Positions 1,779-26,750 of a stretch of 36,482 bases of DNA are shown here, piece after piece; positions within the stretch are counted from its first letter, which is position 1; every line of letters starts with the position of its first letter. The position numbers were made by a program, and so were the translations under genes. Source of the DNA: an uncultured Demequina sp. (lineage in GTDB: Bacteria; Actinomycetota; Actinomycetes; Actinomycetales; Demequinaceae); NCBI RefSeq assembly GCF_913055775.1, contig NZ_CAJXJX010000008.1:1-36482 (forward strand). Direction: 5' to 3'. Under the pieces are notes generated by a model. It was given only the letters and a program-made list of their open reading frames with translations. It was not told where the DNA came from and ran no database searches.

Positions 1779-1823
1779 CGGGGTCTCCTTCTGGGATCGG
1801 CGTTGATCTGTCTCCATGGTGAC

Positions 1824-5950: not shown

Positions 5951-6816
5951 CAGCTCGCCTGACGCAGGCTCGGCACGGACACCCGCCGCTTCTGGCGCAG
6001 CTCGCGGCGCTCGTCGCGACCCTCCGGGGTCGAGGACGGACTCGCGGTCAGCAGCGCCTGCGTGTACTCGTGCTGGGGGTTGTCGAACAGCTCCTCGGTC
6101 ACGCCCTCCTCGACCAGCTCGCCGAGCTTGAGGACGCCCACGCGCTGAGAGATGTGGCGCACCACGCCCAGGTCGTGCGTGATGAACAGGTAGCTCACGC
6201 CCGAGTCCTTCTGGAGGTCCATCAGCAGGTTGATGATCTGGCTCTGGGTGGACAGGTCAAGGGCGCTGACGGCCTCGTCGCAAATCACCAGACGCGGCTC
6301 GAGCACCAGCGCGCGGGCGATCGCGACGCGCTGCAGCTGGCCGCCGGACATCTCCGACGGGAAGCGATCCAGGTGCGCGGCCGTGAGGCCCACCTGCTCG
6401 AAGGACTCCAGGGCCTTCTTCCGACGCGACGCACGGTCGCCGATGCCGTGGCGCTTGAGCGCGTCCGTCACCGCACGACCCACGTGGTGGCGGGGGTTCA
6501 GCGAGGCGCCCGGGTCCTGGTACACCGCCTGTACGTCGCGACGGTAGGACAGCGGCGTCCGCGATCCCATTCCGGCGATGTCGGTGCCGTCGAAGTCGAT
6601 CGACCCGCCCGCGATGTCTGCCAGCCGCAGGATCGCCCTGCCGGTGGTGGACTTGCCCGAGCCGGACTCTCCCACCAGGCCGTAGGTCTCGCCCGGGGCG
6701 ATGTGGAAGCTCACCCCCTTGACCACCGTGGTCATGGACTTGCGGAAGAGGCCGCCCTTGGTCTCGTACGCAACCTCGAGGTCACGAACGTCGAGCAGGG
6801 GCCGGTGCGCCGTCAT
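5950..6816 (-). CDS. Oligopeptide/opine-type ABC transporter ATP-binding protein (DppF/OppF type)
   Basis: This is the cytoplasmic ATPase of an importer: Walker [10 protein letters not shown], signature SGGQLQRVAIARAL, Walker B LVICDEAVSALD, switch THDLGVVRH and the Opp/Dpp C-terminal NPQHEYTQALL. The start at 6816 is preferred because AGGTGA lies nine bases upstream and the gap after the previous stop is eight bases; an ATG at 6840 would overlap the previous gene without a site. It pairs with the ATPase half of the fusion encoded upstream to form the usual two-ATPase motor. Confidence 0.9.
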   Translation of the reverse strand: MTAHRPLLDVRDLEVAYETKGGLFRKSMTTVVKGVSFHIAPGETYGLVGESGSGKSTTGRAILRLADIAGGSIDFDGTDIAGMGSRTPLSYRRDVQAVYQDPGASLNPRHHVGRAVTDALKRHGIGDRASRRKKALESFEQVGLTAAHLDRFPSEMSGGQLQRVAIARALVLEPRLVICDEAVSALDLSTQSQIINLLMDLQKDSGVSYLFITHDLGVVRHISQRVGVLKLGELVEEGVTEELFDNPQHEYTQALLTASPSSTPEGRDERRELRQKRRVSVPSLRQAS

Positions 6817-6824
6817 GGGGATGA

Positions 6825-8717
6825 TCACCTCGCGATCCATTCTCCATCAGCGGTCACGAAGTCCGCGATGGTGGGCAGTCGGTCGACCTTGTGGTCGGCC
6901 GTCGGGTGGGACGCCAGGAGCGCCTTGGTGTACGGGTGGTGGGGCTCGTCGAACAGGCTGAACACGTCATTCACCTCGAGGAGCTGACCGTGATACATGA
7001 TCGCGACGCGGTCGCAGGCCTCGGCCGCCACGCCCAGGTCGTGGGTGATGTTGATGACGGCCATGCCGAGCTTCTCGCGCAGGTCGAGCACCAGGTCGAG
7101 TACCTGGCTCTGGGTGGTGACGTCGAGCGCCGAGGTCGCCTCATCGAGGATCAGCACGTCCGGGTCACCGGCCAGCGCGATCGCGATCGCGACGCGCTGA
7201 GCCATGCCGCCCGAGAACTGATGCGGGTAGTCATCCAGGCGCTTGGCCGCGTCCTTGACACCCACCATGTCCAACAGGTCCGCAGCCTGGTCACGCGCCA
7301 CGGCCTTCGACATGCCGTGGTGGATCCGCAGCGGATCGATCAGCTGGCGACCCACCGTGTGCACCGGCGAGAGGTTGGCCTGCGGGTTCTGGAAGACCAC
7401 GCCCAGCTTCTTGCCGCGGATCTCGCGCCACTGACGCTCCGTGCGGCCCACGAGCTCCTCGCCGGCCAGCTCGACGGAGCCGGACTCGACGCGCACTCCC
7501 GCGGGCAGCAGCCCCAGGATCGACTTCGCGAGCATCGACTTGCCAGAGCCGGACTCTCCCAGCAGGCCCATGACCTCGCCGCGACCCACGGTGAGGTCGA
7601 GACTGGAGACCAGCGGCACCACCTCGCCATCGGGACGGTCCGCGACGATGTGGATGTCGCGCACCGCCAGGACGGGGTCGGGGTGCTTGTCCGTGGTCAC
7701 GAGGGCCTGGGCGAGCGCCGGGGCAACCGCGACGGGCGTCGTGACGACGCTCGACACGGCGCGCTTGGCCTCTTCGACCTCGGCCAGCGTGGGCGCCTGG
7801 TGGAGGGCCCTCTTGCGCTGCTTGCGGGAGGTGCGGGCGCCGGACAGCGCATCGTTGATGCCGTCGCCCAGCAGGTTCAGGGCGAGCACGGTGATGACGA
7901 TCGCGATACCCGGGGGGAGCGCCATCCAGGGGTGGTCGACCTGGTGCTCCGCAGCAGTGCGGAGCATGCCGCCCCACGAGGGCTGGTCATCCGGAAGGCC
8001 CAGCCCCAGGAAGGACAGCGCCGCCTCGACCTTGATCGCGTTGCCCAGGAACACGGCGCCCTGCACGGCGAGGGGGCCCACGAGGTTGGGCAGCACCTGG
8101 CCGAACACGATCTGGCGGTTGCGCAGTCCCGTGACATGGGCGGACTCGACGTAGAGCTTCTTGCGCTCGGTCAGCGTAATGGCGCGGACCATGCGGGCAA
8201 AGTTCATCGAGAAGATGAGTCCGATCGCGAAGATCAGGATGAGAGTGCCGCGGCCAAGGATCGCGATGACGACAAAGCCGATCATGATGCCGGGCATCGC
8301 GTCCGCGATGTCCATGACACGCGAGCCCAGGCGGTCATACCAGCCGCCCTTGTAGCCCAGGATCAGACCCATCGGCACGCCGATCAGCATGGCGACCAGC
8401 ACCGAGCCGACGCCCACGATCAGCGCCGTGCGCGCGGCGTAGATGAGCTGGCTCAGGATGTCGTGGCCAAAGTCGTCAGTGCCGAGAAGGTGGTCGGCGG
8501 ACGGGCCCGCGAGCACCGAGGTGAAGTCGGTCTCGCCGGCGTCGTACGGAGCGATGAGGGGCGCGGCGGCGGCGATCACGATGATGATCGCGATAGTGAT
8601 GACTGCGGCCAGCGTGACGGGCTGATGGCGGAGCCGGCGCCACGCCTGGGCGGGGCCGGAGGCCTGACGGGCTGCGGGTGCGGAGGCGGCCGCGGGGCCG
8701 ACGGTGGAGGTGGTCAT
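6825..8717 (-). CDS. ABC transporter permease-ATPase fusion (DppC-DppD in one chain)
   Basis: This 630-residue protein combines a DppC-type permease (about 1-300; membrane segments, the [20 protein letters not shown] entry motif and the EAA loop around [10 protein letters not shown]) with a complete ATPase (Walker [10 protein letters not shown] near 382-390, signature [15 protein letters not shown], Walker [13 protein letters not shown]), joined by a charged linker near 300-345. No stop or frameshift lies between, so the fusion is genuine; such fusions are known in actinobacteria. Its ATG overlaps the stop of the DppB gene (ATGA). The open frame extends upstream to 9458, but that part is antiparallel to no known domain and overlaps DppB. 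Confidence 0.9.
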
Positions 8718-9658
8718 GCGGGCCTCGCCTGCGGGTTGATCAGTCCGTACAAGATGTCGATGAGCAGGTTGACCGCGATCACGAGCGTCGCGGTGAACAG
8801 CACCACTCCCTGCACGACCGGGAAGTCCTGGCCGATGGTGCTGGTGAGCATGAGGGAGCCCAGGCCCGGGAACGAGAAGACCTTCTCGATCACGAAGCTC
8901 ACGCCAATCAGAATGGCGAAGACCACGCCGATCGAGGCGAGCACCGGGACCATGGCGTTCTTCACGCCGTACTGGTAGAGGATCTTCCAGCGGGGCACGC
9001 CCGCGGCAGTGAGCGTGTCCGTGTAGGGAGCGGCGAGAGCTCGCACCATGGAGGCCCTCGTCTGGCGCGCGATGATCGCACCGCCGGTGATGCCGAGCGT
9101 CAGCGACGGCAGGATCAGGCCCACGAACCAGCCCCACGGGTCCACGGTGAACGGCACCCAGCCGATGATGGGCAGCCACCCCAACTGGGCCGCGAAGACG
9201 GTGGTGAGAAGGATGCCGAGCCAGAACTCGGGGATCGCGATGCCCAGGACGGTGCCTCCCGTGAGGAGGCGGTCCGCCTTGGTGCCGGGGCGGGTGCCGG
9301 TGTAGACACCGACACCCACCCCGATCACGATGGCGACGACCATGCCGCCGAGGATCATCGACAGGGTCGCGGGGATGCGCTGAGCGAGCATCTCCGTGAC
9401 AGGGAGCCCGGACCGGTAGGCCGTGCCCAGGTCTCCCTGCACGAGCCCGCCGAACCATTCGAGCAGGCGCTCGCCTGCCGGGCGATTGAGCCCCAGCTGC
9501 TCCTCCACCAGTGCGATGGACTCCGGTGTGGCCGAGACCCCGAGGATCGCGGCCGCCGGAGATCCCGGCACCAGGTAGGTCAGTGAGAACACCACCACCG
9601 ACACCACCAGTAGCTGCGGTATTGCGAACCCCAGCCGGTAGAGGACAAGCTTCCCCAT
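8714..9658 (-). CDS. ABC transporter permease, DppB/OppB type
   Basis: This 314-residue inner-membrane protein has about six membrane segments. The N-terminal LYRLGFAIPQLLVVSVVVFSL segment, the LGLNRP...LEWFGGLVQGDLG motif typical of DppB, and an EAA-like loop TLTAAGVPRWKILYQYG are all present. It forms the translocation pore with the permease half of the downstream fusion. AGGAG stands nine bases before the ATG. It lies 41 bases after the binding-protein gene in one operon. Confidence 0.9.
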   Translation of the reverse strand: MGKLVLYRLGFAIPQLLVVSVVVFSLTYLVPGSPAAAILGVSATPESIALVEEQLGLNRPAGERLLEWFGGLVQGDLGTAYRSGLPVTEMLAQRIPATLSMILGGMVVAIVIGVGVGVYTGTRPGTKADRLLTGGTVLGIAIPEFWLGILLTTVFAAQLGWLPIIGWVPFTVDPWGWFVGLILPSLTLGITGGAIIARQTRASMVRALAAPYTDTLTAAGVPRWKILYQYGVKNAMVPVLASIGVVFAILIGVSFVIEKVFSFPGLGSLMLTSTIGQDFPVVQGVVLFTATLVIAVNLLIDILYGLINPQARPA

Positions 9659-9699: not shown

Positions 9700-11271
9700 T
9701 CAAGACCCTGCGGGACGCAGATCGCGGAAGTTGATCAGGACCGTCTCCCACGGCTCGCTGGGAGCCGCAGCACCCGAGACCGTGTCCGTGTTGACGGCGA
9801 TCAGTTCCTGCGACTGGATGTGAGCGCAGGTCAGCGCCTCCTCGGAGATGATCAGCGTCACCTCCGCCCACAGGTCGTCTGCCTCCTCCGACGTGCCCGC
9901 GGCGATCGCCGCATCCGCAGCGGCCTTGAGCTGGTCGGACTCGACACCGGCCGGGTTGCCCGGGGCCTCCGCAGCGAACCACGACTGGTACCAGTCGTAC
10001 GGCGTGAGCTCGTCGTTCGAGCCCAGGCCGATGGGGTAAGCGCCGGCGTTCCACTCGGAGAAGTACTGCGGCGGCGGGGCCTCCTGCACCGTGAGGTTGA
10101 ACCCGAGCTCGCCCAGCTGCTCCGCGTAGACCGAGATCTGGCGGTTGTTGAACGAGGTCGACAGCCAGTCGCCCTCGACCGCCGGGCTGCCGGCCTGGCT
10201 GTAGAGCGTCTCTGCCATCTCCAGGTCGTGCTCGTAGCCGGTGATCGCGGGGTTGTAGCCCTGCTCGCCCTCGGCGAAGTGCTGCGACACAGGCGTGACG
10301 TCGGGGTCGAGGTCCGCGACGACCTGCGTGTTGATCGCGTAGCACGCGGCCTGACGCACCTCGAGCTCCTCGAACATGCCGCCGGGGCCACGGTCGAAGA
10401 ACATCGGGTTGTTCCGGATGCCGGGGTAGGCGATGGTCTCGAACGTTCCAGCCTCCTCGAATACGGACAGCTGGTCGAGCTCGGTGTCGGTGACGTCGAT
10501 CTCGCCGTTGATCATCGCGGTGCTGGCGGCGTTGTCCTCCTCGATCGCGAACAGCTGGACCGTCTCGAAACCGGGGGCGTCGCCCCAGTACTCGGCGAAC
10601 GGACCGAACGTCATGCGGGTGCCGGCGATCGAAGCCGCCTCGTCGTACGCCCACGGACCGGTGCCGACCGGGGTCTGCGCGATCGAGCCGTCCGCGATGG
10701 CCGCGGGGCTCGCCATCGGAGCGGCACGGGTGGCCAGGGTGGTGAGCAGCGACGGTGCCGGCGCCGACAGGTTGATCTGGACCGTCAGGTCGTTGACCGC
10801 GTCGATAGAGTCGATCACCTGGAACGGCCCGGCGTAGGGGCCGGGCGTGTTCTTGATGAGCTCGAGGTTGACCTTGACGGCCTCGGCATCGAACGGCGTG
10901 CCGTCGTGGAAGGTGACGCCGGGCTGAAGCTCGAGGGTCAGGGCCTCGTCCGTCTGCTCCCACGACGTGGCGAGCCACGGTGCAGGCTTGCGATCGTCAC
11001 CCAGCTTCGTGAGGTTCTCATAGGGAACGCGCATGTAGCCGGCTTCCATCTCGGCGCCAGGCGCCCAGTTCTCGGGGAAGCCGCCCCAGTTGGCGCGGAG
11101 GACGGAGCCGGCGACCTGACCGCCCGCACTGGGCGCGGCGTCCTCGGTCGTGGTGCTGGTGGGCTCGTCGCTGGAGTCTTCTGCGGGGTCGTCGGAGCTG
11201 CAGGCACCGAGGAGCAGCGCGGCGGCCGCGACGGGGACGGCAAGCCGAGCGAAGCGTGTGGTCTTCATCAT
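9700..11271 (-). CDS. ABC transporter substrate-binding lipoprotein, family 5 (DppA/OppA type)
   Basis: This 523-residue protein has a lipoprotein signal peptide (MMKTTRFARL..., lipobox LGAC with Cys24) and an acidic Ser/Thr-rich spacer before the solute-binding fold. The segment LQPGVTFHDGTPFDAEAV is the family 5 signature. The lipoprotein captures the substrate outside the membrane for the permeases encoded downstream. Family 5 members bind peptides, opines, nickel chelates and diverse small compounds, so the substrate cannot be named; the surroundings suggest an aromatic or amino acid derivative. The start at 11271 (the first of two consecutive ATGs) is 10 bases after AAGGAGG. The next DNA upstream carries a promoter with two GntR-type palindromes. 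Confidence 0.9.
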   Translation of the reverse strand: MMKTTRFARLAVPVAAAALLLGACSSDDPAEDSSDEPTSTTTEDAAPSAGGQVAGSVLRANWGGFPENWAPGAEMEAGYMRVPYENLTKLGDDRKPAPWLATSWEQTDEALTLELQPGVTFHDGTPFDAEAVKVNLELIKNTPGPYAGPFQVIDSIDAVNDLTVQINLSAPAPSLLTTLATRAAPMASPAAIADGSIAQTPVGTGPWAYDEAASIAGTRMTFGPFAEYWGDAPGFETVQLFAIEEDNAASTAMINGEIDVTDTELDQLSVFEEAGTFETIAYPGIRNNPMFFDRGPGGMFEELEVRQAACYAINTQVVADLDPDVTPVSQHFAEGEQGYNPAITGYEHDLEMAETLYSQAGSPAVEGDWLSTSFNNRQISVYAEQLGELGFNLTVQEAPPPQYFSEWNAGAYPIGLGSNDELTPYDWYQSWFAAEAPGNPAGVESDQLKAAADAAIAAGTSEEADDLWAEVTLIISEEALTCAHIQSQELIAVNTDTVSGAAAPSEPWETVLINFRDLRPAGS

Positions 11272-11593
11272 GGTTCTGGCGCCTCCTTGCGCCGGGGAAC
11301 TCGTGGCTGTCGATTCTAGGGGCCGGGGAACGGTCCGGGGTTCGCCCCCTGACCGATCCCATGGGTGGGGACGGGTCAGGTGATTCCGCTCTCCCTGACT
11401 GACCCGGCGGCGAGCGTGGATGCGCCCCTGCCGAGCCGGACTGACGACGTGCCGCTGAAGCCTCGTGAGCGAGTGGCGAGGAGCGGGGACACACGCGAAG
11501 CGACGCCACTGCGTCCTGTGCGGTGGTGCGGAGCCTTCATGGATCCTGCCTCCCCGTCGACTCTCCCTCGAGCCGACATCGTCGTGTCCATGG

Positions 11594-11622
11594 ATCGTAT
11601 ACGACGTGTGAATCCTGCGCAA
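11594..11622 (-). promoter_or_regulatory. Promoter of the ABC importer operon
   Basis: On the minus strand TTGCGC (11622-11617), a 17-base spacer and TACGAT (11599-11594). The -10 is embedded in the palindrome TCGTATACGA, so a bound repressor would block RNA polymerase. Confidence 0.45.
11595..11604. promoter_or_regulatory. GntR/FCD-type operator, copy 1
   Basis: TCGTATACGA is a perfect 10-base palindrome in a GGATCGTATACGAC context. The related sequence recurs exactly 30 bases away and again at 15311. It is the probable site for the GntR regulator encoded at 12051-12746. Confidence 0.6.
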
Positions 11623-11624
11623 GA

Positions 11625-11634
11625 TCGCATACGA
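11625..11634. promoter_or_regulatory. GntR/FCD-type operator, copy 2
   Basis: TCGCATACGA, one base from the perfect palindrome and identical to the site at 15311-15320. Its centre is 30 bases (about three helical turns) from copy 1, and it lies just upstream of the -35. Confidence 0.58.
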
Positions 11635-11910
11635 CTTCAGAACGGTATCGGTTCGGTAACGACGCGATGATCCCCCGCAACACGCGTGAAATCGGCATTG
11701 ATGCCCCCACAACCCTCGGTGCGACCCCAGCCATTCGCGTCCGACCCTTGCCGAGAGTCGAGGGAATGTATATGATTTTCGTCACGCCGAGGCTTGCGTC
11801 CCACGCGGGGCGCTGGCCCCGGCGCAGGAGTCTCGCAGCGTCGCGAGGCCGGGGACCCGTTCCCCAGCCCTGGACCTGCGTCTCCACACACGGATAGAGA
11901 GGCACGCAGC

Positions 11911-12054
11911 GTGAAGGCAACGGACAAGCGCCGGCATCGCCCCCGCATCGGCCTGCCCGCGGCACCCGCGTCCCGCCTCTCCCTCTCCCTCTCCCACTCC
12001 CACGCGCAGGCCACCCTGCCCGCGCATCGGCCCTACCGAGGACTCACCTCATGA
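11911..12054 (+). CDS. Possible short leader ORF overlapping gntR
   Basis: A 47-codon frame starts at GTG 11911, eight bases after AGAGAGG, and its TGA overlaps the ATG of gntR (TCATGA). The product is basic and low in complexity, with a SLSLSLSHSH run from a CTCTCC hexanucleotide repeat. Two CGCATCGGCC motifs lie inside. Spacing suggests translational coupling, but composition could equally be noncoding leader DNA. Confidence 0.3.
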   Translation: MKATDKRRHRPRIGLPAAPASRLSLSLSHSHAQATLPAHRPYRGLTS

Positions 12055-12746
12055 CTGACGCCTCTCTGTCCAAATCGCAGCGCGCGTATGACTGGATCAA
12101 GGCGCGCATCGCGACGCAGGAGTTCACGCCGGGCTACCGCCTGGTGCTGGGGACCATCGCCAAAGAGCTCGACATGTCCGTGGTGCCTGTGCGCGAGGCA
12201 GTGCGCCAGCTCGAGGCCGAGCGCGTGGTGACCTTCGAGCGCAACGTGGGAGCACGCGTCGCGATGGTCGATGACTCGGACTACCGAGCGACCATGCAGG
12301 CGGTGTCCATCGTCGAGTCGGCCGCGACCGCGCTCGCGTCCCGCTCGCTCACCGTGGACGACATCCGGCAGGCGCGCTCGGTCAACGAGGTCATGGTGAG
12401 GTCGCTGGACCGGTTCGAGCCCCGCACCTTCAGCGCCCTCAATCAGGAATTCCACCACCTGCTGTACTCGCGCTGCCCCAACCACCGCCTGGTCCAGATC
12501 GTCGACGCCGAGTGGGGCCGCATGAGCCACCTGCGCGACTCGATCTTCACCTTCGTGCCCGGGCGGGCGGCCGAATCCGTCAAAGAGCACGAGGAAATCC
12601 TCGTGCTCATCGAACGCGGGGCGCGCCTCGAGGACATCGAGGCCGCCGTGCGACGCCATCGCACCGGCACGCTCGCCGCGTATCTGGTCCACGAGCACCC
12701 CGACGAGACCCTCGGCCTTCCCATCGAGGACGAAGCCCGACTGTAG
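12051..12746 (+). CDS. GntR-family regulator, FCD subfamily; probable cluster regulator
   Basis: This 231-residue protein has a GntR winged helix (about 8-75; RAYDWIKARI, GTIAKELDMSVVPVREAVRQLE) and an FCD domain (about 85-220) with histidines in NQEFHHLL, VKEHEEIL and VRRHRTGT that normally hold the metal and acid ligand. A GAGGA precedes the ATG. The next gene, 36 bases on, is the HpaH hydratase. The palindromes TCG(T/C)ATACGA at 11595, 11625 and 15311 are the likely binding sites, making this the candidate repressor of the importer and catabolic operons. The inducer is probably a pathway acid. Confidence 0.88.
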   Translation: MTDASLSKSQRAYDWIKARIATQEFTPGYRLVLGTIAKELDMSVVPVREAVRQLEAERVVTFERNVGARVAMVDDSDYRATMQAVSIVESAATALASRSLTVDDIRQARSVNEVMVRSLDRFEPRTFSALNQEFHHLLYSRCPNHRLVQIVDAEWGRMSHLRDSIFTFVPGRAAESVKEHEEILVLIERGARLEDIEAAVRRHRTGTLAAYLVHEHPDETLGLPIEDEARL

Positions 12747-12782: not shown

Positions 12783-13568
12783 ATGCTTCCCCAGCCCACG
12801 ATCGACGCTCTCGCCGAGGAACTCGCCGAAGCGCATCGCTCGCGCAGCGTGATCCCCCGCATCACCGCGCGCCACCCCGAGGCGACCGTCGAGGACTCGT
12901 ACGCGATCCAAGGCCTGTGGCGCGACCGCGCGCTCGCGGACGGACGCCGGCTCGTGGGGCGCAAGATCGGGCTGACCTCGAAGGCGATGCAGCAGGCCAC
13001 CGGGATCAGCGAGCCTGACTACGGCGTGATCCTCGATGACACCGTATGGGAGTCCGGCGCCGTGGTGCCGTTCGACGACTTCTCCAACGTGCGTATCGAG
13101 GTCGAGCTGGCGTTCGTGCTGGCGTCGCCGCTCGAGGGACCGCACTGCACCGTGTTCGACGTCCTGCGCGCGACCGAGTACGTGACGCCCGCTCTCGAGA
13201 TCCTCAACTCGCACATCGAGCTCGAGGGCCGCACCATCGTCGACACGATCGCGGACAACGCTGCCTACGGCGGGCTGGTCCTGGGCGGCCGCCCCGTCGC
13301 GCCCGCGGACGTGGACCTGCGCTGGGTGGGCGCGATGCTGTACCGCAACGAGACCATCGAGGAGACCGGCGTGGCCGGCGGCGTGCTGGACAACCCGGCC
13401 TCGGGCGTCGCGTGGCTCGCGAACAAGCTGCACCAGCACGGCGACTCGCTCGCGGCGGGCGAGGTGATCCTCGCGGGCTCGTTCACCCGGCCGGTGTGGT
13501 GCGAGCGCGGCGACTCGGTGCTGTGCGACTACGGCCCGCTGGGGAACGTGAGCGTCCGCTTCGAGTAG
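12783..13568 (+). CDS. hpaH: 2-oxo-hept-4-ene-1,7-dioate hydratase (HpaH/MhpD family)
   Basis: This 261-residue protein closely resembles E. coli HpaH across its length: AIQGLWRDRALADGRRLVGRKIGLTSKAMQ (about 41-70), SEPDYG, IEVELAFVLASPL with metal-binding Glu106 and Glu108, and Glu139. The C-terminal GVLDNPASGVAWLANKL, GSFTRPV and the CDYGPLGNVSVRFE end also match. The enzyme adds water to a 2-hydroxydienoate using Mg2+, giving the 4-hydroxy-2-oxo acid that an aldolase splits to pyruvate and an aldehyde. AGGAG precedes the ATG. It is co-directional with gntR. Confidence 0.88.
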   Translation: MLPQPTIDALAEELAEAHRSRSVIPRITARHPEATVEDSYAIQGLWRDRALADGRRLVGRKIGLTSKAMQQATGISEPDYGVILDDTVWESGAVVPFDDFSNVRIEVELAFVLASPLEGPHCTVFDVLRATEYVTPALEILNSHIELEGRTIVDTIADNAAYGGLVLGGRPVAPADVDLRWVGAMLYRNETIEETGVAGGVLDNPASGVAWLANKLHQHGDSLAAGEVILAGSFTRPVWCERGDSVLCDYGPLGNVSVRFE

Positions 13569-13814: not shown

Positions 13815-14861
13815 CTAGATCGGGAGGTTGAACATCTCCTTGGCGTTCTTCCACAGGATCTTCTCGCGGTCCTCGTCCGAGACCTCGATCTCGTTCTTGA
13901 GGAACTCCACGCCCTGGCTCATCCACGAGTAGAACACCGGGAAGCTCGACCCGAACATGTAGTGGTCGGCGCCGTTGATGCGCAGCGCAGCCTCGACCTG
14001 CTCCTTGCCCCACGAGTGCGGGTGCGTCATGTCGAAGAAGATGTTGTTCTCGAGGTACTTGCGGATCGCGTCGCCGCCCGTCGGGTCAAGGCGCTGCATC
14101 GCCTCCTTCTTGTGGGTGGCGTGCGGCGTCATGAGCGCGGTGTTGGCGAACCAGTTGCCGCCGAACATCGTGTGCGTGAACTTCAGGTTGGGCCAGCGGT
14201 CGAACATGCCGGAGAACAGCTCGCGGCCCACGGCGGTGGCCTGGTCCACGATGCGCCCGTACTCGCGGCGCAAGTTCGTGTAGTCGATCACCGAGCGCCA
14301 CTCGACGGGCAGCGGCGTGTGGTGCACGATCACCGGCACGTTCAGCTCGTTGATCGCGTCGAGGTAGGGCGCGAACGCCTCGTCGTCCAGGTAGAGCTGG
14401 CCGTAGTGGCATGCGAGCTGGACGGCGACGGCCCCGTTGTCGAGGCAGCGCTTGAGCTCGTCGATGTTCTCCTTGCCACCCCACGGCGGCACGCACGCGG
14501 TCGAGAACAGGCGGCCGCCCGAGCGCTCCACGATCTCGCGAGCGTTGTCGTTCACGACCTTGCAGGTGTCCAGGCGCAGCCACTCCTGCCACACCGGCAC
14601 GCGCATGATGCCGTAGTCCACGCCGGCCTCGTCCATCGCGGCGAGCTTGGCGTCCACGTTGTAGTCGCCCTCGACGTAATTGAGGTTCTGGTAGCCCGCG
14701 GGCTTCTCGAGGATGAGCTGGCGGCGGCCGTCATCCATGGTCTTGACGGTGGCGATCTCGCCGAATCCGCGCGGCGCGGTCGACAGGAAGCCGTTCAGGG
14801 TCTGCTCGTTGTCGAACAGGTCCTCGGGGAGGTGGTGGATGTTGATGTCGACGACGGTCAT
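13815..14861 (-). CDS. ACMSD-like amidohydrolase with altered metal site
   Basis: This 348-residue protein belongs to the amidohydrolase-2 / ACMSD-like decarboxylase group: DINIHHLPEDL at the start, KLAAMDEAGVDYGIM (about 72-86), ALFAPYLDAI-like helix, VPVIVHHTPLP (about 175-185) and a terminal MFGSSFPVFYSW (302-313). Members are metal-dependent decarboxylases or hydrolases of ring-cleavage products and hydroxybenzoates. Usual ligands are disturbed: the N-terminal HxH reads N7-x-H9 followed by H10, and the near-universal Asp of GSDFP/GTDYP is Ser306. The remaining histidines, including H180-H181, are present. AGAAGGGA precedes the ATG. It is divergent from the dienelactone-hydrolase operon. 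Confidence 0.8.
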   Translation of the reverse strand: MTVVDINIHHLPEDLFDNEQTLNGFLSTAPRGFGEIATVKTMDDGRRQLILEKPAGYQNLNYVEGDYNVDAKLAAMDEAGVDYGIMRVPVWQEWLRLDTCKVVNDNAREIVERSGGRLFSTACVPPWGGKENIDELKRCLDNGAVAVQLACHYGQLYLDDEAFAPYLDAINELNVPVIVHHTPLPVEWRSVIDYTNLRREYGRIVDQATAVGRELFSGMFDRWPNLKFTHTMFGGNWFANTALMTPHATHKKEAMQRLDPTGGDAIRKYLENNIFFDMTHPHSWGKEQVEAALRINGADHYMFGSSFPVFYSWMSQGVEFLKNEIEVSDEDREKILWKNAKEMFNLPI

Positions 14862-15467: not shown

Positions 15468-16226
15468 TTGAGCACGGACACCCCGCTCACCGAGCGCGAC
15501 GTCGAGTACACGCACGACGGCACGCGCATGATCGGCCTCCTGGTCGCACCCGTGACCGCCTCTTCCGAGGCCCCCCTCCCCGGCATCCTGCTGGTCCACG
15601 ACGCGTTCGGCCTGGGCGAGGACATGACCGCCACCGCCCGCCGCTACGCCCAGCTGGGCTACGCGGTCTTCGCCGCCGATGTCTGGGGCGAGCGCACGCA
15701 GCCCACCGAGGGCAGCCAGATCGGCCCGCTGATCGGCTCGATGGTCTCCGACCGCGAGCGCTGGATGGGCCGGATGGCAGCCGCGCACGCCGCGATGGTC
15801 GCGCAGCCCGAGGTGGACGCCGCCGCGATCGCCGCGGCCGGCTACTGCTTCGGAGGCTCCTCCGCCCTCGAGTTCGCCCGGACCGGCGGCGAGGTCCGCG
15901 GCGCGATCGGGATCCACGCGGGGCTCGACCTGCTCGACAGCGACTGGTCCGCCCCCGGGCCCGTCGAGCGCGTCCTCATCTGCACCGGATCCGCCGACCC
16001 GATGGCCACGTCCGATCAGCGCGACGCCCTCCAAGACGCCCTCACCGGCGCAGGCGTCGACTGGGAGACGGACCTGTACTCGGGCGCCCAGCACGCCTTC
16101 ACCAATCCCAAGTCGGACCTTCCCGGCATGCCCCCGGGCGTCGGCTATGACGCCCGCGCCTCCCAGCGCGCCTGGGACTCCACCGCGAGGTTCCTCGCGG
16201 ACCTCCTGACCCCCGCATCGGCCTGA
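15468..16226 (+). CDS. Dienelactone hydrolase family protein
   Basis: This 252-residue alpha/beta hydrolase has the dienelactone hydrolase triad: nucleophile Cys127 in GYCFGGS, Asp177 in GSADPM and His209 in GAQHAFTNP. The family opens lactones formed during aromatic breakdown, though many members hydrolyse other esters. The TTG start is set by GGGAGGAA immediately upstream. It is the first gene of the operon behind the 15305 promoter. The last codons carry CCCGCATCGGCC directly against the stop, a partial copy of the dispersed motif. Confidence 0.85.
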   Translation: MSTDTPLTERDVEYTHDGTRMIGLLVAPVTASSEAPLPGILLVHDAFGLGEDMTATARRYAQLGYAVFAADVWGERTQPTEGSQIGPLIGSMVSDRERWMGRMAAAHAAMVAQPEVDAAAIAAAGYCFGGSSALEFARTGGEVRGAIGIHAGLDLLDSDWSAPGPVERVLICTGSADPMATSDQRDALQDALTGAGVDWETDLYSGAQHAFTNPKSDLPGMPPGVGYDARASQRAWDSTARFLADLLTPASA

Positions 16227-16269: not shown

Positions 16270-17625
16270 ATGTCGACTTCCAAGGACCTCAACGTCGCGA
16301 TCATCGGCGCCGGCCCCGCCGGCCTCGCCACCGCGCTGCGCCTGCACCAGCAGGGCTTCACGCCCAAGATCTACGAGACCGTCGAGGAGCTCAAGCCGCT
16401 GGGCGTGGGCATCGACGTCAAGGTGTACGGCACCAAGGAGCTCATCGAGCTGGGTGTGTACGAGGAGTTCAAGGACATCTCAGTGGACGCCAAGACCTCG
16501 ATCTTCTTCAACAACCACGGCCAGGAGATCTACGCGGAGCTGTGCGGCGTGCACATGGGATATCTGCACGAGCAGCGCTTCGTGCACCGCGGCACCCTGC
16601 AGATGCTGCTGTTCGACAAGGTCATCGAACGACTGGGGGCCGATGCGGTGGTCCAGGGCGCGCGGTTCGTCAAGTACGAGAACAAGGAGGACGGCGTCAC
16701 CGTCCACCTGCGTCACCGCGACGGCCGCGAAGAGCAGGTCTGGGCAGACGTGCTGATCGCGGCGGACGGCATCAAGTCCGAGGCCCGCAAGCAGATGCAC
16801 CCGAACCAGGCCGAGCCGCACTACTCGGGCATCACGATGTACCGCGGCACCACCCTGATGGACCGGTACCGCGACGGCCACACCATCCTGCACATCGGCG
16901 CCCCGGACATCGCCACGATGATCGTCTACCCGATCGCGGAGAACTTCGAGGGCACCGGCAAGGTGCTGGTCAACTGGGTGGTCGAGCGCACCCGCGACGA
17001 GACCGTCGAGGACTGGAACCAGCTGGGATCCGTGGACGAGATCATCGACCTGTTCGACACGGTGAAGCTGCCCTTCCTGGACGTCCAGGAAATGCTGCGC
17101 AACAACCGCGAGATCTACCTGTTCCCGCTGATTCGCCACGAGCCGCTGGACAGCTGGACCGACGGTCGCGTGGTCCTGATCGGCGACGCGGCTCACGCGA
17201 TGTACCCGCGCGGCGGCAACGGCGCGTGCCAGGCGATCGTCGACGGCGGCGTGGTCGCCGCCAAGCTCGCCGAGATCGACGACGTCCCCGCCGCGCTGAA
17301 GGCCTTCGAGCAGGCGCGCATCAAGCAGGTCAACGGCATGGTCATGGCGCACCGTGGCGAGGGCTACGAGGTCATCCGCCGCATGGTCGCGGACCGCACC
17401 GGCGCCCAGCCCTTCGAGGACATCGAGGACGTGCTCCCGCTGGCCGAGGCCGACGAGATCTTCTCCAAGTACCACGCCATGGTGGGTCAGCCCCGTCCCG
17501 GCTTCGAGGCGGGCGAGACCACCGGCTTCCGCACGTGGGAGGTCGAGGATGAGACGGTCGAGGCCATCCAGGCCGCGGCTGCGGCGAAGAAGGCCGTGCC
17601 TGACACGGCCGCGTCGGCCCGCTGA
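16270..17625 (+). CDS. FAD-dependent aromatic monooxygenase, PhzS-like
   Basis: This 451-residue group A flavoprotein monooxygenase has GAGPAG at 13-18 for FAD, a DG motif (IAADGIKS, about 165) and GDAAHAMYPRGGNGACQA (305-322). The LGVGIDV, FVHRGTLQMLL and SGITMYRGTT segments resemble PhzS, the 5-methylphenazine-1-carboxylate 1-monooxygenase, more than salicylate hydroxylase. It would use NAD(P)H and O2 to hydroxylate a ring, often with loss of a carboxylate, producing the diol for the extradiol dioxygenase. The C-terminal 55 residues go beyond the core fold and end in an Ala-rich tail. An exact 14-mer lies inside (residues 123-128). Confidence 0.88.
   Translation: MSTSKDLNVAIIGAGPAGLATALRLHQQGFTPKIYETVEELKPLGVGIDVKVYGTKELIELGVYEEFKDISVDAKTSIFFNNHGQEIYAELCGVHMGYLHEQRFVHRGTLQMLLFDKVIERLGADAVVQGARFVKYENKEDGVTVHLRHRDGREEQVWADVLIAADGIKSEARKQMHPNQAEPHYSGITMYRGTTLMDRYRDGHTILHIGAPDIATMIVYPIAENFEGTGKVLVNWVVERTRDETVEDWNQLGSVDEIIDLFDTVKLPFLDVQEMLRNNREIYLFPLIRHEPLDSWTDGRVVLIGDAAHAMYPRGGNGACQAIVDGGVVAAKLAEIDDVPAALKAFEQARIKQVNGMVMAHRGEGYEVIRRMVADRTGAQPFEDIEDVLPLAEADEIFSKYHAMVGQPRPGFEAGETTGFRTWEVEDETVEAIQAAAAAKKAVPDTAASAR
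16638..16651 (-). repeat. Dispersed 14-mer, exact copy
   Basis: GGCCGATGCGGTGG inside the monooxygenase gene, read as Ala-Asp-Ala-Val. Confidence 0.8.
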
Positions 17626-17654: not shown

Positions 17655-18437
17655 GTGGACCTCGGGATCGCCGGGCGCACGGCCCTCGTGACGGCCTCGT
17701 CGCAGGGGCTGGGGCTGGCGTGCGCCACCTCGCTCGCTCGCGAGGGCGCGACGGTATGGCTCAACGGGCGCGACCGGCAGCGCCTGGGACGGGCGGCCGA
17801 TGCGGTGGTCGCCCAGGTGCCGGACGCGTCAGTCCGATGGGTCGCGGCGGACCTCACGATTCCCGAAGGTCGCGCGGCCATCGTGGAGGCGGTCCGCGAC
17901 GTCGACATCCTCGTCACCAACAACTCGGGCCCGCGGCCCGGGCCGATGGAGGACTGGGACGAGGCTGCGATCCTGGGCGCCCTGCACGCGAACTTGATCC
18001 CCGCGGTCGAGCTCATCCGCGCGTACGTGTCGGGCATGCGCGCAAGGAAGTTCGGGCGCATCGTCAACATCACGTCCGCGATGGTGAAGTCGCCGGCCGC
18101 GGACATGGGACTGTCGACCTCCGCCCGCGCTGCGCTCACGGCGATTTCGAAGTCGATCTCCAAGACGGTGGCCGCGGACAACGTGACGGTCAACAACCTG
18201 CTGCCGGAGCGCATCGACACCCCGCGCCAGGAGTTCATGGCGAAGCGCCGCATGGAGCGCGACGGGATCACCCGCGACGAGGCGTACGCGGCGATAGCGT
18301 CGACCGTGACGGCCGCTCGCCTGGGCCGGCCCGAGGAGTTCGGGGACGCGTGCGCGTTCCTGTGCTCGGCGCAGGTGGGCTACATCTCCGGGCAGAACCT
18401 GCAGCTCGACGGCGGCACCTACGAAGGGTTGATATGA
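17655..18437 (+). CDS. Atypical short-chain dehydrogenase/reductase
   Basis: This 260-residue Rossmann-fold SDR has a nucleotide-binding loop TASSQGLGLA (13-22), an NNSG motif (89-92), Ser141 and a C-terminal SGQNLQLDGGTYEG. The catalytic YxxxK is absent: the equivalent region reads GLSTSARAAL (152-161), with no Tyr and Arg/Ala where Lys belongs. A subgroup of SDRs with this replacement exists; its chemistry is not settled. The GTG start follows CAGGAAGGAT. Its stop overlaps the next ATG (ATGA). It may act on a pathway intermediate by another mechanism or be non-redox. An exact 14-mer covers residues 47-51. Confidence 0.85.
   Translation: MDLGIAGRTALVTASSQGLGLACATSLAREGATVWLNGRDRQRLGRAADAVVAQVPDASVRWVAADLTIPEGRAAIVEAVRDVDILVTNNSGPRPGPMEDWDEAAILGALHANLIPAVELIRAYVSGMRARKFGRIVNITSAMVKSPAADMGLSTSARAALTAISKSISKTVAADNVTVNNLLPERIDTPRQEFMAKRRMERDGITRDEAYAAIASTVTAARLGRPEEFGDACAFLCSAQVGYISGQNLQLDGGTYEGLI
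17795..17808 (-). repeat. Dispersed 14-mer, exact copy
   Basis: GGCCGATGCGGTGG inside the SDR gene, read as Ala-Asp-Ala-Val in the same frame as other coding copies. Confidence 0.8.
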
Positions 18438-18913
18438 CAGACGTGACACTCGCTGACGAGGCCACGCGCGACGCGATCCTCGCCCTCGAGGAGCGGCGCC
18501 GCCAGGCGCTGATCGACCTCGACATGGAGACGCTCGACGATCTCTACGACGATGCCCTGATCCACATCCACGCCCCCGGACTGGTGCACACCAAGGCGCA
18601 GCTCATGGAGCACGCCGCCACCCGCAACCCCTACATCGACATGTGGCGCGAGGACCTGCTGATGCGGGCCATCGGCGACGTCGTGATCGTGACCGGTCCG
18701 CTGGTGAATCGCCTGCGCAACCCCGGCGGCGGCGAGCGCACCGTGCGCGGCCAGGTCACCCAGGTGATCCGGCGCTGCGACGACGGCGCTTGGCGCTATC
18801 TCACCTTCCAGATGACCCCCGACGGCGAACAGGTGTGGGGCGCGCTGAAGTCCGGGTCGGACGCCAGCCAAGCCACCGCATCGGCCCCTACTACCGAACC
18901 CCAGGAGAACTGA
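18434..18913 (+). CDS. NTF2-like / SnoaL-like small protein
   Basis: This 159-residue protein has the cone-shaped NTF2 fold pattern: a helical start (EERRRQALIDLDMETLDDLYDDALIHIHAPG), then strands ending in WRYLTFQMTP. Such proteins serve as small isomerases, dehydratases or ring-hydroxylase partner subunits; the sequence does not decide. Its ATG overlaps the SDR stop by ATGA. The last 20 residues form a Ser/Ala/Thr tail containing an exact 14-mer copy. It probably handles the same intermediate as the SDR. Confidence 0.75.
   Translation: MTDVTLADEATRDAILALEERRRQALIDLDMETLDDLYDDALIHIHAPGLVHTKAQLMEHAATRNPYIDMWREDLLMRAIGDVVIVTGPLVNRLRNPGGGERTVRGQVTQVIRRCDDGAWRYLTFQMTPDGEQVWGALKSGSDASQATASAPTTEPQEN
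18873..18886 (+). repeat. Dispersed 14-mer, exact copy
   Basis: CCACCGCATCGGCC in the C-terminal tail of the NTF2-like gene, read as Ala-Thr-Ala-Ser-Ala. Confidence 0.8.
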
Positions 18914-18916
18914 GAC

Positions 18917-19771
18917 ATGAAGCTTGCCCGCTACCGCCTGGGCGACGGCCCCGTGCGCATCGGCCGTGTCGACGGCGACCGCGTGACCAACATCTCCGGC
19001 GTCCCCGGCGTCGGCACCTCGCTCAAGGCGCTGCTGCCGCGGCTGGACTCGCTGCGCGATGCGATCCTCACCGCCGAGGCGTCGACCACGCCGCTGTCCT
19101 CGGTGACGCTGCTGCCGCCCATCGACGAGCCGCAGAAGTACCTGGGGATCGGCATGAACTACGCCGCGCACGCCGAGGAGGCGCGCCAGGCCGGGATCCC
19201 CATCCCCGAGACGCAGATGTGGTTCAACAAGCAGGTCAGCTGCATTGTGGGCCCGTACGACGACGTCGAACGCCCCACCGTGTCCGAGCAGCTCGACTAC
19301 GAGGTCGAGCTCGCCGTGGTGATCGGGCGCGAGTGCCGCCACGTGTCGCGCGCGGACGCGCAGAGCGTCATCGCCGGCTACATGGTCGCCAACGACGTCT
19401 CCGTGCGCGACTGGCTGGCCAAGCGCTCCCCCACCTTCACGCTGGGCAAGTCCTTCGACACCCACGGGCCCATCGGACCCTGGCTCACCACCGCTGACGA
19501 GGTCCCGGATCCGCACGCGCTCGAGCTGTCGCTGACCGTCAACGGCGAGGAGCGCCAGCGGGCCCGCACCGACGACCTCATCTACGACATCTTCGAGCAG
19601 ATCGAGTACCTCACCACCGTGATGACGCTCATGCCCGGCGACATCCTCGCGACCGGCACCCCCGCCGGCATTGGTGCGCCCACCCAGAACTGGCTGCGGC
19701 CGGGCGATGTGGTCCGCGCGACCGTCGAGGGCCTGGGATCCATCGAGAACACGATCGTCGAGGGGCGCTGA
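18917..19771 (+). CDS. Fumarylacetoacetate hydrolase-family protein (HpaG-like)
   Basis: This 284-residue protein has the FAH fold after an N-terminal cap (1-70). Metal ligands are visible in LDYEVELAVVIG (Glu129, Glu131) and AGYMVANDVSVRD (Asp160), with GKSFDTHGPIGPW (177-189) and the terminal DILATGTPAGIG. The family covers C-C hydrolases, isomerases and decarboxylases; in homoprotocatechuate meta-cleavage HpaG decarboxylates and isomerises the product before HpaH. That role fits here but acylpyruvate hydrolysis is also possible. It starts four bases after the NTF2-like stop. Confidence 0.85.
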   Translation: MKLARYRLGDGPVRIGRVDGDRVTNISGVPGVGTSLKALLPRLDSLRDAILTAEASTTPLSSVTLLPPIDEPQKYLGIGMNYAAHAEEARQAGIPIPETQMWFNKQVSCIVGPYDDVERPTVSEQLDYEVELAVVIGRECRHVSRADAQSVIAGYMVANDVSVRDWLAKRSPTFTLGKSFDTHGPIGPWLTTADEVPDPHALELSLTVNGEERQRARTDDLIYDIFEQIEYLTTVMTLMPGDILATGTPAGIGAPTQNWLRPGDVVRATVEGLGSIENTIVEGR

Positions 19772-19774
19772 GTC

Positions 19775-20203
19775 ATGTCGGGGGGTGAGCGTGCTGCGCG
19801 AGGCGAGCGTCGCCGCCAGAGCATCGACCTACCCGGCTTCGGGCACGCCAACCCCATCCCGGCGGCCGCGCGCATCGGCGAACTGCTGATGTCCGGGGTG
19901 CTGACCGGCCGTGACCCGTCGACGCGCGAGATGCCGGCGACTCTCGACGAGCAGTGCGCGAATGTGTTCGCTCACGTGCGGACGCTTCTCGCCGAGGCCG
20001 GCGGCTCCACCGACGACATCATCAAGATGACCTTCTGGCTTGCGGACTACCGCGATCGCGACGCCCTCAACCGCGAGTGGCTCGCGATGTTCCCCGACTC
20101 GTCGAACCGTCCCGCACGTCAGGCGATGGCTGCCTCACTCGACGGAGGGTGCCTGATCCAGTGCGACCTCGTGGCGGTGCTCGGCGACTCCGCAGCGCCG
20201 TGA
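19775..20203 (+). CDS. RidA/YjgF-family protein, possible enamine/imine deaminase
   Basis: This 142-residue protein has an N-terminal basic extension (1-15) and then the RidA fold: IGELLMSGVLTG, QCANVFAHVRTLLAEAGGSTDDIIKMTFWLADY and Arg115 in PARQAM at the place of the RidA substrate arginine. RidA-type proteins hydrolyse reactive enamines and imines; in 2-aminophenol and aminomuconate pathways a YjgF-type protein is the 2-aminomuconate deaminase. The start is the ATG four bases after the FAH stop. Its presence suggests a nitrogen-containing intermediate in this pathway. Its stop overlaps the GTG of the next gene. Confidence 0.85.
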   Translation: MSGGERAARGERRRQSIDLPGFGHANPIPAAARIGELLMSGVLTGRDPSTREMPATLDEQCANVFAHVRTLLAEAGGSTDDIIKMTFWLADYRDRDALNREWLAMFPDSSNRPARQAMAASLDGGCLIQCDLVAVLGDSAAP

Positions 20204-21438
20204 GCACGGTGGAGCCCACGAACCCGGAGACGTCACGCGGCAACCCCGCAGGCGTCCCGGTCGCGCGGCTCCTTCCTCTCCTCGCCGTGCTCACGGCGCT
20301 CGGACCCATCTCCGTCGACATCTACACGCCTTCGCTGCCCGCGATGCAGGAGGACCTGGGGGGCTCCGACGCCCTGACCCAGGCCTCGGTGACCACGTTC
20401 CTGCTCGGAATCGGCGTGGGCCAGCTGGTGTGGGGTCCGCTCTCGGATCGCGTGGGGCGGCGCCCGGTCATCCTGATGGGAGTCGGGGCGTGGGCGGTCG
20501 CGTGCGTCGCGGCGGCCTTCGCGACCTCGCCCGAGATGCTCGTCGCCGTCCGGCTGCTGGCGGGGCTGTGCGCCGCCGCGGGCATCGCGGTCGCGCGCTC
20601 GGTGGTGCGCGACGTGTCGACAACGCGGGCCCAGATGGCCTCGCGCATCGGCCTGCTGTCGATGGTCACGGCGCTCGCGCCGGTGCTCGCGCCCGTGATC
20701 GGCGCCGGCATCGCAGCGCTGTGGGGCTGGCGGGCCGACTTCGTGGCCATGGCCGCGGTGGGCGGGGTCATCGTGCTGGCCTACGCGTGGATGGTGCCGG
20801 AGACACTGCCCGCTGCACGCCGGGAGTCCGGCGGGGTCGCCGCGATCGGCGGCGCGCTGGTGCGTGCGGTGCGCGACCGCGAGCTGCGCGGCGTCGCGCT
20901 CGCGCTCGGGGTGCACTCGTTCGGGTTCTACGCGTACGTGACCACGGCCGCCTTCATCGTCGAGCGGGAGTTCGGGCACTCGCCCGCGGTGTTCGCCGCG
21001 GTGTTCGGGTCCAACGCCGTAGCGGTGATCGTGGGCAACCAGCTGTTCCGTCGCGTGGTGCAGCGACGCCACCCGGTCTCACCGCTGGGTGTGGGATTCG
21101 CGATGTGCGCCGTCGCCGGCGCCGGGCTGGGCATCCTCGCGGTCGTGGGCGCGCCCGAACTGCTGCTGTGGGCGGCGTCCATGGTCTACGCCCTGGGCCA
21201 GGGCCTGGTGCTGCCGGGGTCGCACTCGTGGGCCCAGACCACCGCGGTCGCGTCGGGCGCCGCCTCGGCGCTCGCCGGGTCCGCGCAGTTCCTCGGCGGC
21301 GTGTTCGGATCGCCCATCACGGGCCTGCTGGGCCCGACCGCCGCGAACCTGGGTCTGGTGACGGCGCTGGCCTCGGGAGTCGGCGTGCTCGTCTGGGTCT
21401 CCACGCGCCGACACGTCCCGGCGGAGGTGCCGACATGA
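20200..21438 (+). CDS. Bcr/CflA-type MFS efflux transporter
   Basis: This 412-residue inner-membrane protein has about 12 membrane segments. The start LLAVLTALGPISVDIYTPSLPAM and WGPLSDRVGRRPV are characteristic of the Bcr/CflA proton-drug antiporter group. The GTG at 20200 overlaps the RidA stop (GTGA), so the open frame further upstream is discarded. Inside the catabolic operon it probably exports the aromatic substrate or a toxic intermediate, although uptake is not excluded. Confidence 0.85.
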   Translation: MSTVEPTNPETSRGNPAGVPVARLLPLLAVLTALGPISVDIYTPSLPAMQEDLGGSDALTQASVTTFLLGIGVGQLVWGPLSDRVGRRPVILMGVGAWAVACVAAAFATSPEMLVAVRLLAGLCAAAGIAVARSVVRDVSTTRAQMASRIGLLSMVTALAPVLAPVIGAGIAALWGWRADFVAMAAVGGVIVLAYAWMVPETLPAARRESGGVAAIGGALVRAVRDRELRGVALALGVHSFGFYAYVTTAAFIVEREFGHSPAVFAAVFGSNAVAVIVGNQLFRRVVQRRHPVSPLGVGFAMCAVAGAGLGILAVVGAPELLLWAASMVYALGQGLVLPGSHSWAQTTAVASGAASALAGSAQFLGGVFGSPITGLLGPTAANLGLVTALASGVGVLVWVSTRRHVPAEVPT

Positions 21439-21650
21439 CCGCGACTCGACTCGACCTGCCGACGCCCCTCGGCACTCCCGCCCAGCCACCGCATCGGCCC
21501 TCATCCATCCATCACCCTGCGTCCCGGCAGTCAACAAGTGCCATTCTTCGCCCACATTCGGCACGGAACGACTGCCGGCGCGCATCCACCACCTGCGACA
21601 ATGCATACCCAGCGGTATGTGATCACTCTGCACCCAAGGAGCTGCCATGA
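21435..21650 (+). CDS. Doubtful small ORF filling the gap between MFS and ALDH genes
   Basis: A 71-codon frame begins ATGA-overlapped with the MFS stop and ends ATGA-overlapped with the ALDH start. It contains an exact dispersed 14-mer read in a frame unlike other coding copies, and the ALDH regulatory inverted repeat. No family is recognised. The overlaps suggest coupling, the content suggests noncoding DNA or a gene remnant. Confidence 0.2.
   Translation: MTATRLDLPTPLGTPAQPPHRPSSIHHPASRQSTSAILRPHSARNDCRRASTTCDNAYPAVCDHSAPKELP
21486..21499 (+). repeat. Dispersed 14-mer, exact copy
   Basis: CCACCGCATCGGCC in the gap between the MFS and ALDH genes. Confidence 0.8.
21604..21619. promoter_or_regulatory. 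Inverted repeat upstream of the ALDH gene
   Basis: CATACC-CAGC-GGTATG, a perfect six-base inverted repeat 27 bases before the ATG. It could be an operator (its ATACC...GGTAT form is reminiscent of LysR sites) or a small mRNA hairpin. It differs from the GntR palindrome. Confidence 0.4.
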
Positions 21651-26736: not shown

Positions 26737-26750
26737 GGTCTCCTCCTCGC

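Follow-up and report, generated by a model that had tools for sequence, protein, structure and literature searches.

P0002, an amidohydrolase-fold protein encoded in a window of 36,482 nucleotides from an uncultured Demequina sp. (by window we mean the whole stretch of DNA that was analysed), belongs, as judged from aligned sequences, to a distinct and widely spread clade within the group of ACMSD and the ortho-hydroxybenzoate decarboxylases, and the unusual active site of this clade is fixed. Our analysis suggests that the clade has abandoned the standard metal site and takes part in the catabolism of plant polyphenols. Its genes often stand in polyphenol islands, and they do so in several phyla. 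As far as a search of the open-licence literature goes, the family is undescribed: we found there no paper on an ACMSD-type metal-independent enzyme, none linking DUF3500 with an amidohydrolase, and none on an amidohydrolase associated with catechol dehydroxylase in Gordonibacter. A Dehalococcoidia cell has been described as having amidohydrolase-family proteins of unknown function (PMC4959651, in part).

Fold and relatives of P0002

The open reading frame of P0002 has the base profile of coding DNA, with a GC content by codon position of 0.60/0.36/0.98. The protein scores 81.5 bits against the Pfam family PF04909 (Amidohydro_2), for a curated cut-off of 26.4; no NCBIfam model matches it at E 0.001. 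By sequence, its nearest relatives of solved structure are LigW2, gamma-resorcylate decarboxylase, 5-carboxyvanillate decarboxylase and ACMSD. A profile built from 56 family members matches LigW2 at 6e-27 and gamma-resorcylate decarboxylase at 4e-22. The AF2 model, with a mean pLDDT of 93.6 and a pTM of 0.91, fits the (beta/alpha)8 amidohydrolase fold of the ACMSD/ortho-hydroxybenzoate decarboxylase group. Among the matches listed, the best solved structure superposed on this model is LigW (Z 34.6, 2.8 Å, 314 residues), with ACMSD at Z 33.7 and gamma-resorcylate decarboxylase at Z 33.1. The barrel is shared near full length, with Z between 31.7 and 34.6, across ACMSD, LigW/5-carboxyvanillate, gamma-resorcylate, 2,3-dihydroxybenzoate and salicylate decarboxylases of PF04909, and the profile homology is clear. 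An earlier note, made from the letters of the DNA, had described an ACMSD-like amidohydrolase with an otherwise intact fold, to be aligned with LigW, gamma-resorcylate decarboxylase and ACMSD; sequence, profile and structure matches all agree with this description.

LigY and LigJ, a C-C hydrolase and a hydratase of Amidohydro_2, have the same fold (Z 29.1 and 28.5 to the model) and are more distant from the family by sequence (E 1e-4 and 4e-11, respectively). LigY breaks C-C bonds by hydrolysis, and both enzymes keep their metal ligands.

An altered active site, conserved in six phyla

The motifs of P0002 are D5-I-N7-I-H9-H10, H180-H181-T-P, T229-H230-T231-M232-F233-G234-G235 and G304-S305-S306-F307-P308. 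A frame or assembly error behind them is ruled out, as the same motif recurs in other genomes at 80-98% identity. We compared them with 12 distant paralogues from 10 genomes of the same order (two pairs of these being near-copies) and with 83 family members, using the metal-binding positions that we take to hold for ACMSD and gamma-resorcylate decarboxylase. The first ligand of these enzymes, the His or Glu of the H/E-x-H motif, is replaced by Asn7; the family has Asn in 82/83 members, while the paralogues have His in 9/12, Glu in 1/12 and another residue in 2/12. The second histidine of that motif and the barrel histidine are both kept, as H9 (81/83 members, 11/12 paralogues) and H180 (83/83 and 12/12). 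The Asp at the barrel end, at once metal ligand and proton donor and present in 12/12 paralogues, has become S306 (Ser in 82/83 members, Thr in one). Finally, the histidine of HxGG, presumably catalytic and not itself a metal ligand, is M232 (His in 10/12 paralogues). Unlike the ACMSD/LigW-type decarboxylases, the family also has the motifs HHTP, RR-x3-R and HTM-x-GG throughout.

The earlier note had read the N-terminal HxH as N-x-H-H, the usual Asp of GSDFP as Ser306 and the HLGG-type histidine as shifted (THTMFGG), and these motifs are as it described them. Its broader statement, that the standard metal ligands are missing, is right for N7 and S306, two of the four positions, and wrong for H9 and H180, which are retained. 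The alignment indicates that P0002 is devoid of half of the ligand positions and of both residues that usually handle protons, and that two histidines of the site stay.

To know how general this is, we must leave the single sequence. A scan of 84,980 prokaryote species genomes with two peptide patterns found at least 199 relatives; P0002, the best 80 of 199 relatives and two plasmid relatives, from Thioclava (45% identity) and Enterococcus raffinosus (L023, 41%), make up the 83-member set, which spans six phyla. Genomes of Gordonibacter and Adlercreutzia carry the family. Invariant in 83/83 are H180, H181, T182, P183, R198, R199, R203, R213, H230, M232, G234 and G235; one of the two scan patterns includes M232, G234 and G235, so that the counts at these three are partly selected, the other positions lying outside the patterns. 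The pattern that contains M232 is carried by 79/83 members, and the four with the other pattern only also have Met. Four tryptophans, W91, W94, W284 and W313, are near-invariant. Among the paralogues, H181, H230, R199 and R203 are found in 0/12, R198 in 2/12 and R213 in 6/12. The exceptions within the family are few: L094 has Asp at positions 7 and 9, L023 has Tyr at 9 and L079 has Thr at 306. The alteration of the metal site is more general than one sequence could reveal.

In a maximum-likelihood tree that included 8 of the 12 paralogues, all family members form one group, with a support of 100/100, on a long branch whose place and length are unsure, the paralogues being very distant. Several copies deserve a mention of their own. 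The genome CTSoil_080 has two, L073 and L094 (the second, with D7 and D9), 68% and 52% identical to P0002. Genome G569 has one that keeps the motifs, with 45% identity to P0002 and 60% to the divergent L103. In L078 (10001-11406) a complete copy is directly followed by a C-terminal fragment from another, related copy. The Propionispora copy (L099:10001-11035) is interrupted by a single in-frame stop codon and shows a change at Glu214; it is possibly a decaying gene.

The actinobacterial neighbourhood

The genes that surround P0002 in the window are collected in Table 1.

Table 1. Features of the window around P0002.
Feature	Positions	Strand	Remarks
HpaD, 3,4-dihydroxyphenylacetate 2,3-dioxygenase	780..1817	-	TIGR02295, 340.3 bits (cut-off 321.4)
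LysR-type regulator	1911..2804	+	
GntR/FCD regulator	2903..3589	+	
DUF3500 protein, proposed ring-cleavage enzyme for 1,2,3,5-tetrahydroxybenzene	4583..5950	-	PF12006, 309.5 bits
ABC transporter ATPase, oligopeptide type	5950..6840	-	
ORF with permease and ATPase of oligopeptide-type transporter	6825..9458	-	N-terminal part overlaps next permease; true start likely further in
Oligopeptide-type ABC permease	8714..9658	-	
Solute-binding protein family 5	9700..11712	-	SBP_bac_5 at residues 242-567; true start probably further in
GntR/FCD regulator	12051..12746	+	
HpaH, 2-oxo-hept-4-ene-1,7-dioate hydratase	12783..13568	+	TIGR02312, 358.8 bits (cut-off 351.5)
P0002, amidohydrolase-fold protein	13815..14861	-	348 aa; canonical ligand set replaced by N7/H9/H180/S306
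Dienelactone hydrolase (DLH) family protein	15468..16226	+	
FAD monooxygenase	16270..17625	+	PRK07538, 435.7 bits (cut-off 400); nearest solved 2rgj/3c96, flavin-containing monooxygenase
Short-chain dehydrogenase (SDR)	17655..18437	+	
DUF4440 small protein	18434..18913	+	
Fumarylacetoacetate (FAA) hydrolase family protein	18917..19771	+	No NCBIfam model over cut-off
RidA family protein	19775..20203	+	Over Pfam cut-off, below NCBIfam ones
ORF with MFS transporter	19954..21438	+	MFS_1 at residues 111-452; start further in
Aldehyde dehydrogenase, succinate-semialdehyde/HpaE-like	21647..23110	+	Below both NCBIfam cut-offs

Further along the window, at 25720-28187, a GH43 glycosidase adjoins a LacY-type sugar symporter, apparently as a separate unit for sugar use.

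This arrangement is not peculiar to the window. We looked at 53 loci of Actinomycetota (outside the Coriobacteriia, L084 and L085), taking in some 10 kb to either side as far as the contig reached; 7 of them are from Demequina, so that they do not count as independent, and similar genes were put into one group, named from one representative. Close to the family gene stand an FAA hydrolase in 44/53 loci, a FAD monooxygenase in 43/53 and a DUF3500 protein in 43/53, then GntR (38), DLH (27), DUF4440 (27), RidA (26), HpaD (25) and HpaH (20), with at least one of HpaD, HpaH and HpaI in 36. The window and 35/53 loci have DUF3500, FAD monooxygenase and FAA hydrolase all together, and two, L056 and L069, have none of the three. 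As for import, a sugar-type ABC system lies beside the family gene in 26 of the 53 loci (which fall among L024-L096), an oligopeptide-type one in 25, both in 3 and neither in 5. Within the genus, P0002 and DUF3500 are found in exactly the same 8/44 genomes and neither is found in the other 36; in other parts of the order there are also genomes with DUF3500 but no amidohydrolase of this type. Outside the Actinomycetota, the alphaproteobacterium Thioclava has DLH, SDR, NTF2, MFS, FAD monooxygenase, amidohydrolase and FAA hydrolase genes in a row, with DUF3500, HpaD and HpaH nearby. HpaD and HpaH suggest that there is a second product, one that bears a catechol and is of the homoprotocatechuate type.

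With both the residues and the neighbours in hand, we can turn to loss of function, which the earlier note had kept among its options beside altered metal use and a new reaction. It is unlikely, because the altered site is strictly conserved over several phyla and its catabolic neighbourhoods are conserved with it; that fixation rules out a pseudogene, or loss of activity, as the main reading. That P0002 would be a non-catalytic or regulatory descendant, a pseudoenzyme, is in our opinion very improbable: the canonical catalytic residues are lost, as one would expect of such a protein, but new polar residues (H181, H230, R199 and R203) are invariant in their place in 83 sequences, and the gene is kept beside metabolic genes.

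A possible bacterial route through 1,2,3,5-tetrahydroxybenzene

What could the common neighbours be doing? In Aspergillus, gallate is converted into 1,2,3,5-tetrahydroxybenzene, whose ring is proposed to be opened by a DUF3500 protein, with 5-hydroxydienelactone as the product (PMC12388069, in part). This ring-cleavage pathway has been thought to be fungal only (PMC13094099, in part). The fungal pathway and the loci studied here have in common a DUF3500 gene, a FAD monooxygenase gene and a gene of the FAA-hydrolase family, found together; the latter differ in being bacterial and in having an amidohydrolase, DLH, RidA, HpaD/HpaH and importers as well. Work by Martins from 2024 is said to place an FAA-hydrolase-like gene in the fungal cluster. 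Taken together, the bacterial DUF3500, FAD monooxygenase, FAA hydrolase and DLH resemble what would be a bacterial version of the tetrahydroxybenzene pathway, and by analogy the DUF3500 protein of the window could be its ring-cleaver. The only solved relative that we found for the latter is 9x86, named Amc20 (75.5 bits). On chemical grounds, hydroxylation of phloroglucinol, or decarboxylative hydroxylation of 2,4,6-trihydroxybenzoate, would give 1,2,3,5-tetrahydroxybenzene.

The same molecule has a place in anaerobic metabolism. Transhydroxylase is reported to need 1,2,3,5-tetrahydroxybenzene as a co-substrate, and in the available part of the source it is named in that role only (PMC13039779). 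As co-substrate of the transhydroxylase and proposed substrate of DUF3500, 1,2,3,5-tetrahydroxybenzene thus appears on both the anaerobic and the aerobic sides.

The family in anaerobes and perhaps in peat lineages

Several of the groups carrying a P0002-type protein are obligate anaerobes, which are not expected to use oxygenases. In some anaerobes the gene has for neighbours molybdoenzymes that resemble pyrogallol transhydroxylase or catechol dehydroxylase; in others none of these was found. The L085 locus is a block made of part of a TRAP transporter, the amidohydrolase, a MarR regulator, a protein that matches no Pfam family, a lactonase of the beta-propeller type, two large subunits and an Fe-S subunit. 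The two large subunits, which score 853 and 799 bits against 4v4c, resemble pyrogallol hydroxytransferase. G569 repeats this block, although its amidohydrolase is closer to that of L103 than to P0002. The protein without Pfam match (L085:6239-7393) is conserved, between MarR and lactonase, in the transhydroxylase block of L127 (7651-8886): the two are about 384-411 aa long and 84% identical. A 7-bladed lactonase gene is near the amidohydrolase in L085, L127 and L103, and about 9 kb away in L075.

In the Coriobacteriia (Gordonibacter, Adlercreutzia and their relatives), the family gene comes after a molybdoenzyme gene in 7/9 loci (these molybdoenzymes all fall into one cluster), precedes an MFS gene in 8/9, and has beside it, in 8/9, a small Fe-S-like protein that falls below its Pfam cut-offs. 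The adjacent molybdoenzyme of Gordonibacter has acetylene hydratase as its nearest among solved structures. Catechol dehydroxylases have been described as nearest to that enzyme (PMC7028382, in part), in a paper from the text of which the word ‘amidohydrolase’ is absent. In several Bacillota (Negativicutes, Desulfosporosinus) the family gene stands with MFS and MarR genes. None of the annotated neighbours in the Enterococcus locus L023 is a polyphenol gene, and no polyphenol-type match was found among the three neighbours scanned in all (one or two each) in the Oscillospiraceae L080 and L081. Two long hypothetical proteins come after the Enterococcus raffinosus amidohydrolase (L023:9691-15474), which also has a LysR regulator, an ECF transporter S component and a DUF4430 protein beside it, a context not seen in the other loci that we looked at.

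The N-terminal domain of transhydroxylase is present in 19/26 further amidohydrolase genomes, mostly anaerobes by name, and in 12/60 genomes around Desulfosporosinus, its own genome included; 2 of these 60 have the amidohydrolase, one of them with the transhydroxylase domain. The co-occurrence of amidohydrolase and transhydroxylase domain is weak. A phloretin-hydrolase family protein is present in 6/32 amidohydrolase genomes, and in 0/6 of the aerobic actinobacteria among those 32. Its absence from the other 26/32 means that, by this measure, a flavonoid reading does not hold for the family at large. In the surroundings of G490 (99 genomes) it is found in 3/3 genomes with the amidohydrolase versus 9/96 of the others, but these are kin.

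The catechin degraders of peat are reported to include the family CTSoil-080 and a genus printed as CAQPS01 (PMC12203004, in part). L073 and L094 come from the isolate CTSoil_080 and L084 from contig CAIQPS010000005; the match to the peat degraders is one of labels only, and the family is perhaps present in peat lineages.

What P0002 might catalyse

Family membership, conservation and gene context are observations; the chemistry and the substrate are what we infer from them. Our preferred reading, which we hold tentatively, is that P0002 is a probably metal-independent enzyme that cleaves a C-C bond on the polyhydroxylated ring of a plant phenolic, as a decarboxylase or as an aryl-ketone hydrolase, by ipso-protonation. 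Protonation of the ring carbon that bears the leaving carbon would break the bond beside the ring. In a decarboxylase the leaving carbon would be CO2, with 2,4,6-trihydroxybenzoate or gallate as first candidate substrates. In a hydrolase the attack of water would yield a carboxylic acid, and flavonoid-derived aryl ketones such as alphitonin would be the first candidates. The invariant R198, R199 and R203 might substitute for the metal in holding a carboxylate or phenolates, H181, H230 and H180 might donate protons, and W91, W94, W284 and W313 might clamp the ring. In aerobes, the FAD monooxygenase, DUF3500, dienelactone hydrolase and FAA hydrolase would take up a product of the trihydroxybenzene type, and HpaD/HpaH one of the catechol type; in anaerobes, transhydroxylase or catechol dehydroxylase would handle the products.

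A metal-free mechanism is favoured because two of the four ligand positions, the Asp and the HxGG His are gone, while H181, H230, R199 and R203 are invariant. A pocket of Arg, His and Trp could dispense with the metal since an electron-rich, phloroglucinol-like ring needs less help. There is a precedent for this chemistry, although not in a relative of P0002: AGDC1, which with PPP2 represents the cofactor-independent gallate/protocatechuate decarboxylases of fungi, uses a His-Asp dyad, an Arg anchor and a Trp clamp, and these enzymes are set apart from the decarboxylases of the amidohydrolase superfamily (PMC7862292, in part). Against it stands the retention, almost throughout, of H9 and H180, for which a wholly metal-free enzyme has no need.

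These two histidines are the starting point of the main rival, which we consider somewhat unlikely. In this view P0002 would not have lost its divalent metal but would hold it with a new combination of residues, H9 and H180 together with, for instance, H181, H230 or N7, and would carry out an ordinary metal-assisted decarboxylation or hydrolysis. H9 is indeed present in 81/83 members and H180, H181 and H230 in all 83, N7 and S306 are polar and could be weak ligands, and the fold closely matches that of metal enzymes. Yet ligands have been replaced at both ends of the site (N7 and S306), and the presumed set is not constant, H9 being Tyr in L023 and positions 7 and 9 both Asp in L094.

Metal-independence has another precedent, this time in the same superfamily: LigI, the 2-pyrone-4,6-dicarboxylate lactonase, is metal-independent and keeps its Asp. 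A LigI-type, metal-free hydrolysis of a phenolic lactone by P0002 appears distinctly unlikely to us. It would agree with the lactonase genes that lie near the amidohydrolase in some loci. The P0002 family, however, has lost the Asp that LigI keeps, the set of DUF3500 and FAD monooxygenase implies no lactone substrate, and LigI is not among the 50 structural matches listed or the 41 sequence hits, which is no exclusion.

Coming back to the metal-free cleavage of a C-C bond that we prefer, its two versions draw on different evidence. The ortho-decarboxylases of this fold are metal-dependent, their conserved Asp protonating the ipso carbon, and all metal-dependent decarboxylases then known belonged to the amidohydrolase superfamily (PMC6644310, in part). 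Decarboxylation fits the homology best, as the nearest relatives protonate the ipso carbon and release CO2 with a metal. The likeness does not carry over to mechanism, because the Asp and two ligand positions are missing in the P0002 family. Hydrolysis of a two-ring aryl ketone, by contrast, fits best the joint presence of genes for trihydroxybenzene and for catechol. In its most specific form, a conjecture to which we give little credit, the family would supply the C-C hydrolase that flavonol/flavanol breakdown has so far lacked: the auronol alphitonin, or its open-chain diketone, would be split without metal into a phloroglucinol-type ring and a 3,4-dihydroxyphenyl C2/C3 acid, and this step would be common to aerobic actinobacteria (with the bacterial tetrahydroxybenzene pathway and HpaD) and to anaerobes of gut and peat (with transhydroxylase and catechol dehydroxylase). 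Alphitonin cleavage has been ascribed to an unknown enzyme (PMC12203004, in part).

One further candidate comes from the earlier note, which proposed activity tests with ring-cleavage products. Such a substrate, in a true ACMSD- or LigY-type role, is less likely, in that groups known as obligate anaerobes, or presumed to be so, carry the same protein.

Implications

Should the proposed chemistry be true, P0002 and its kin would bring a further mechanism to a superfamily in which decarboxylation has been described as relying on a metal (PMC6644310, in part). The loci of the family would likewise point to a bacterial counterpart to the ring-cleavage pathway thought to be fungal (PMC13094099, in part), and there would be a testable gene for those steps of polyphenol degradation that lack an enzyme, the cleavage of alphitonin for example (PMC12203004, in part). 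In peat, where the breakdown of polyphenols affects metabolites and methane, the family is perhaps carried by resident lineages.
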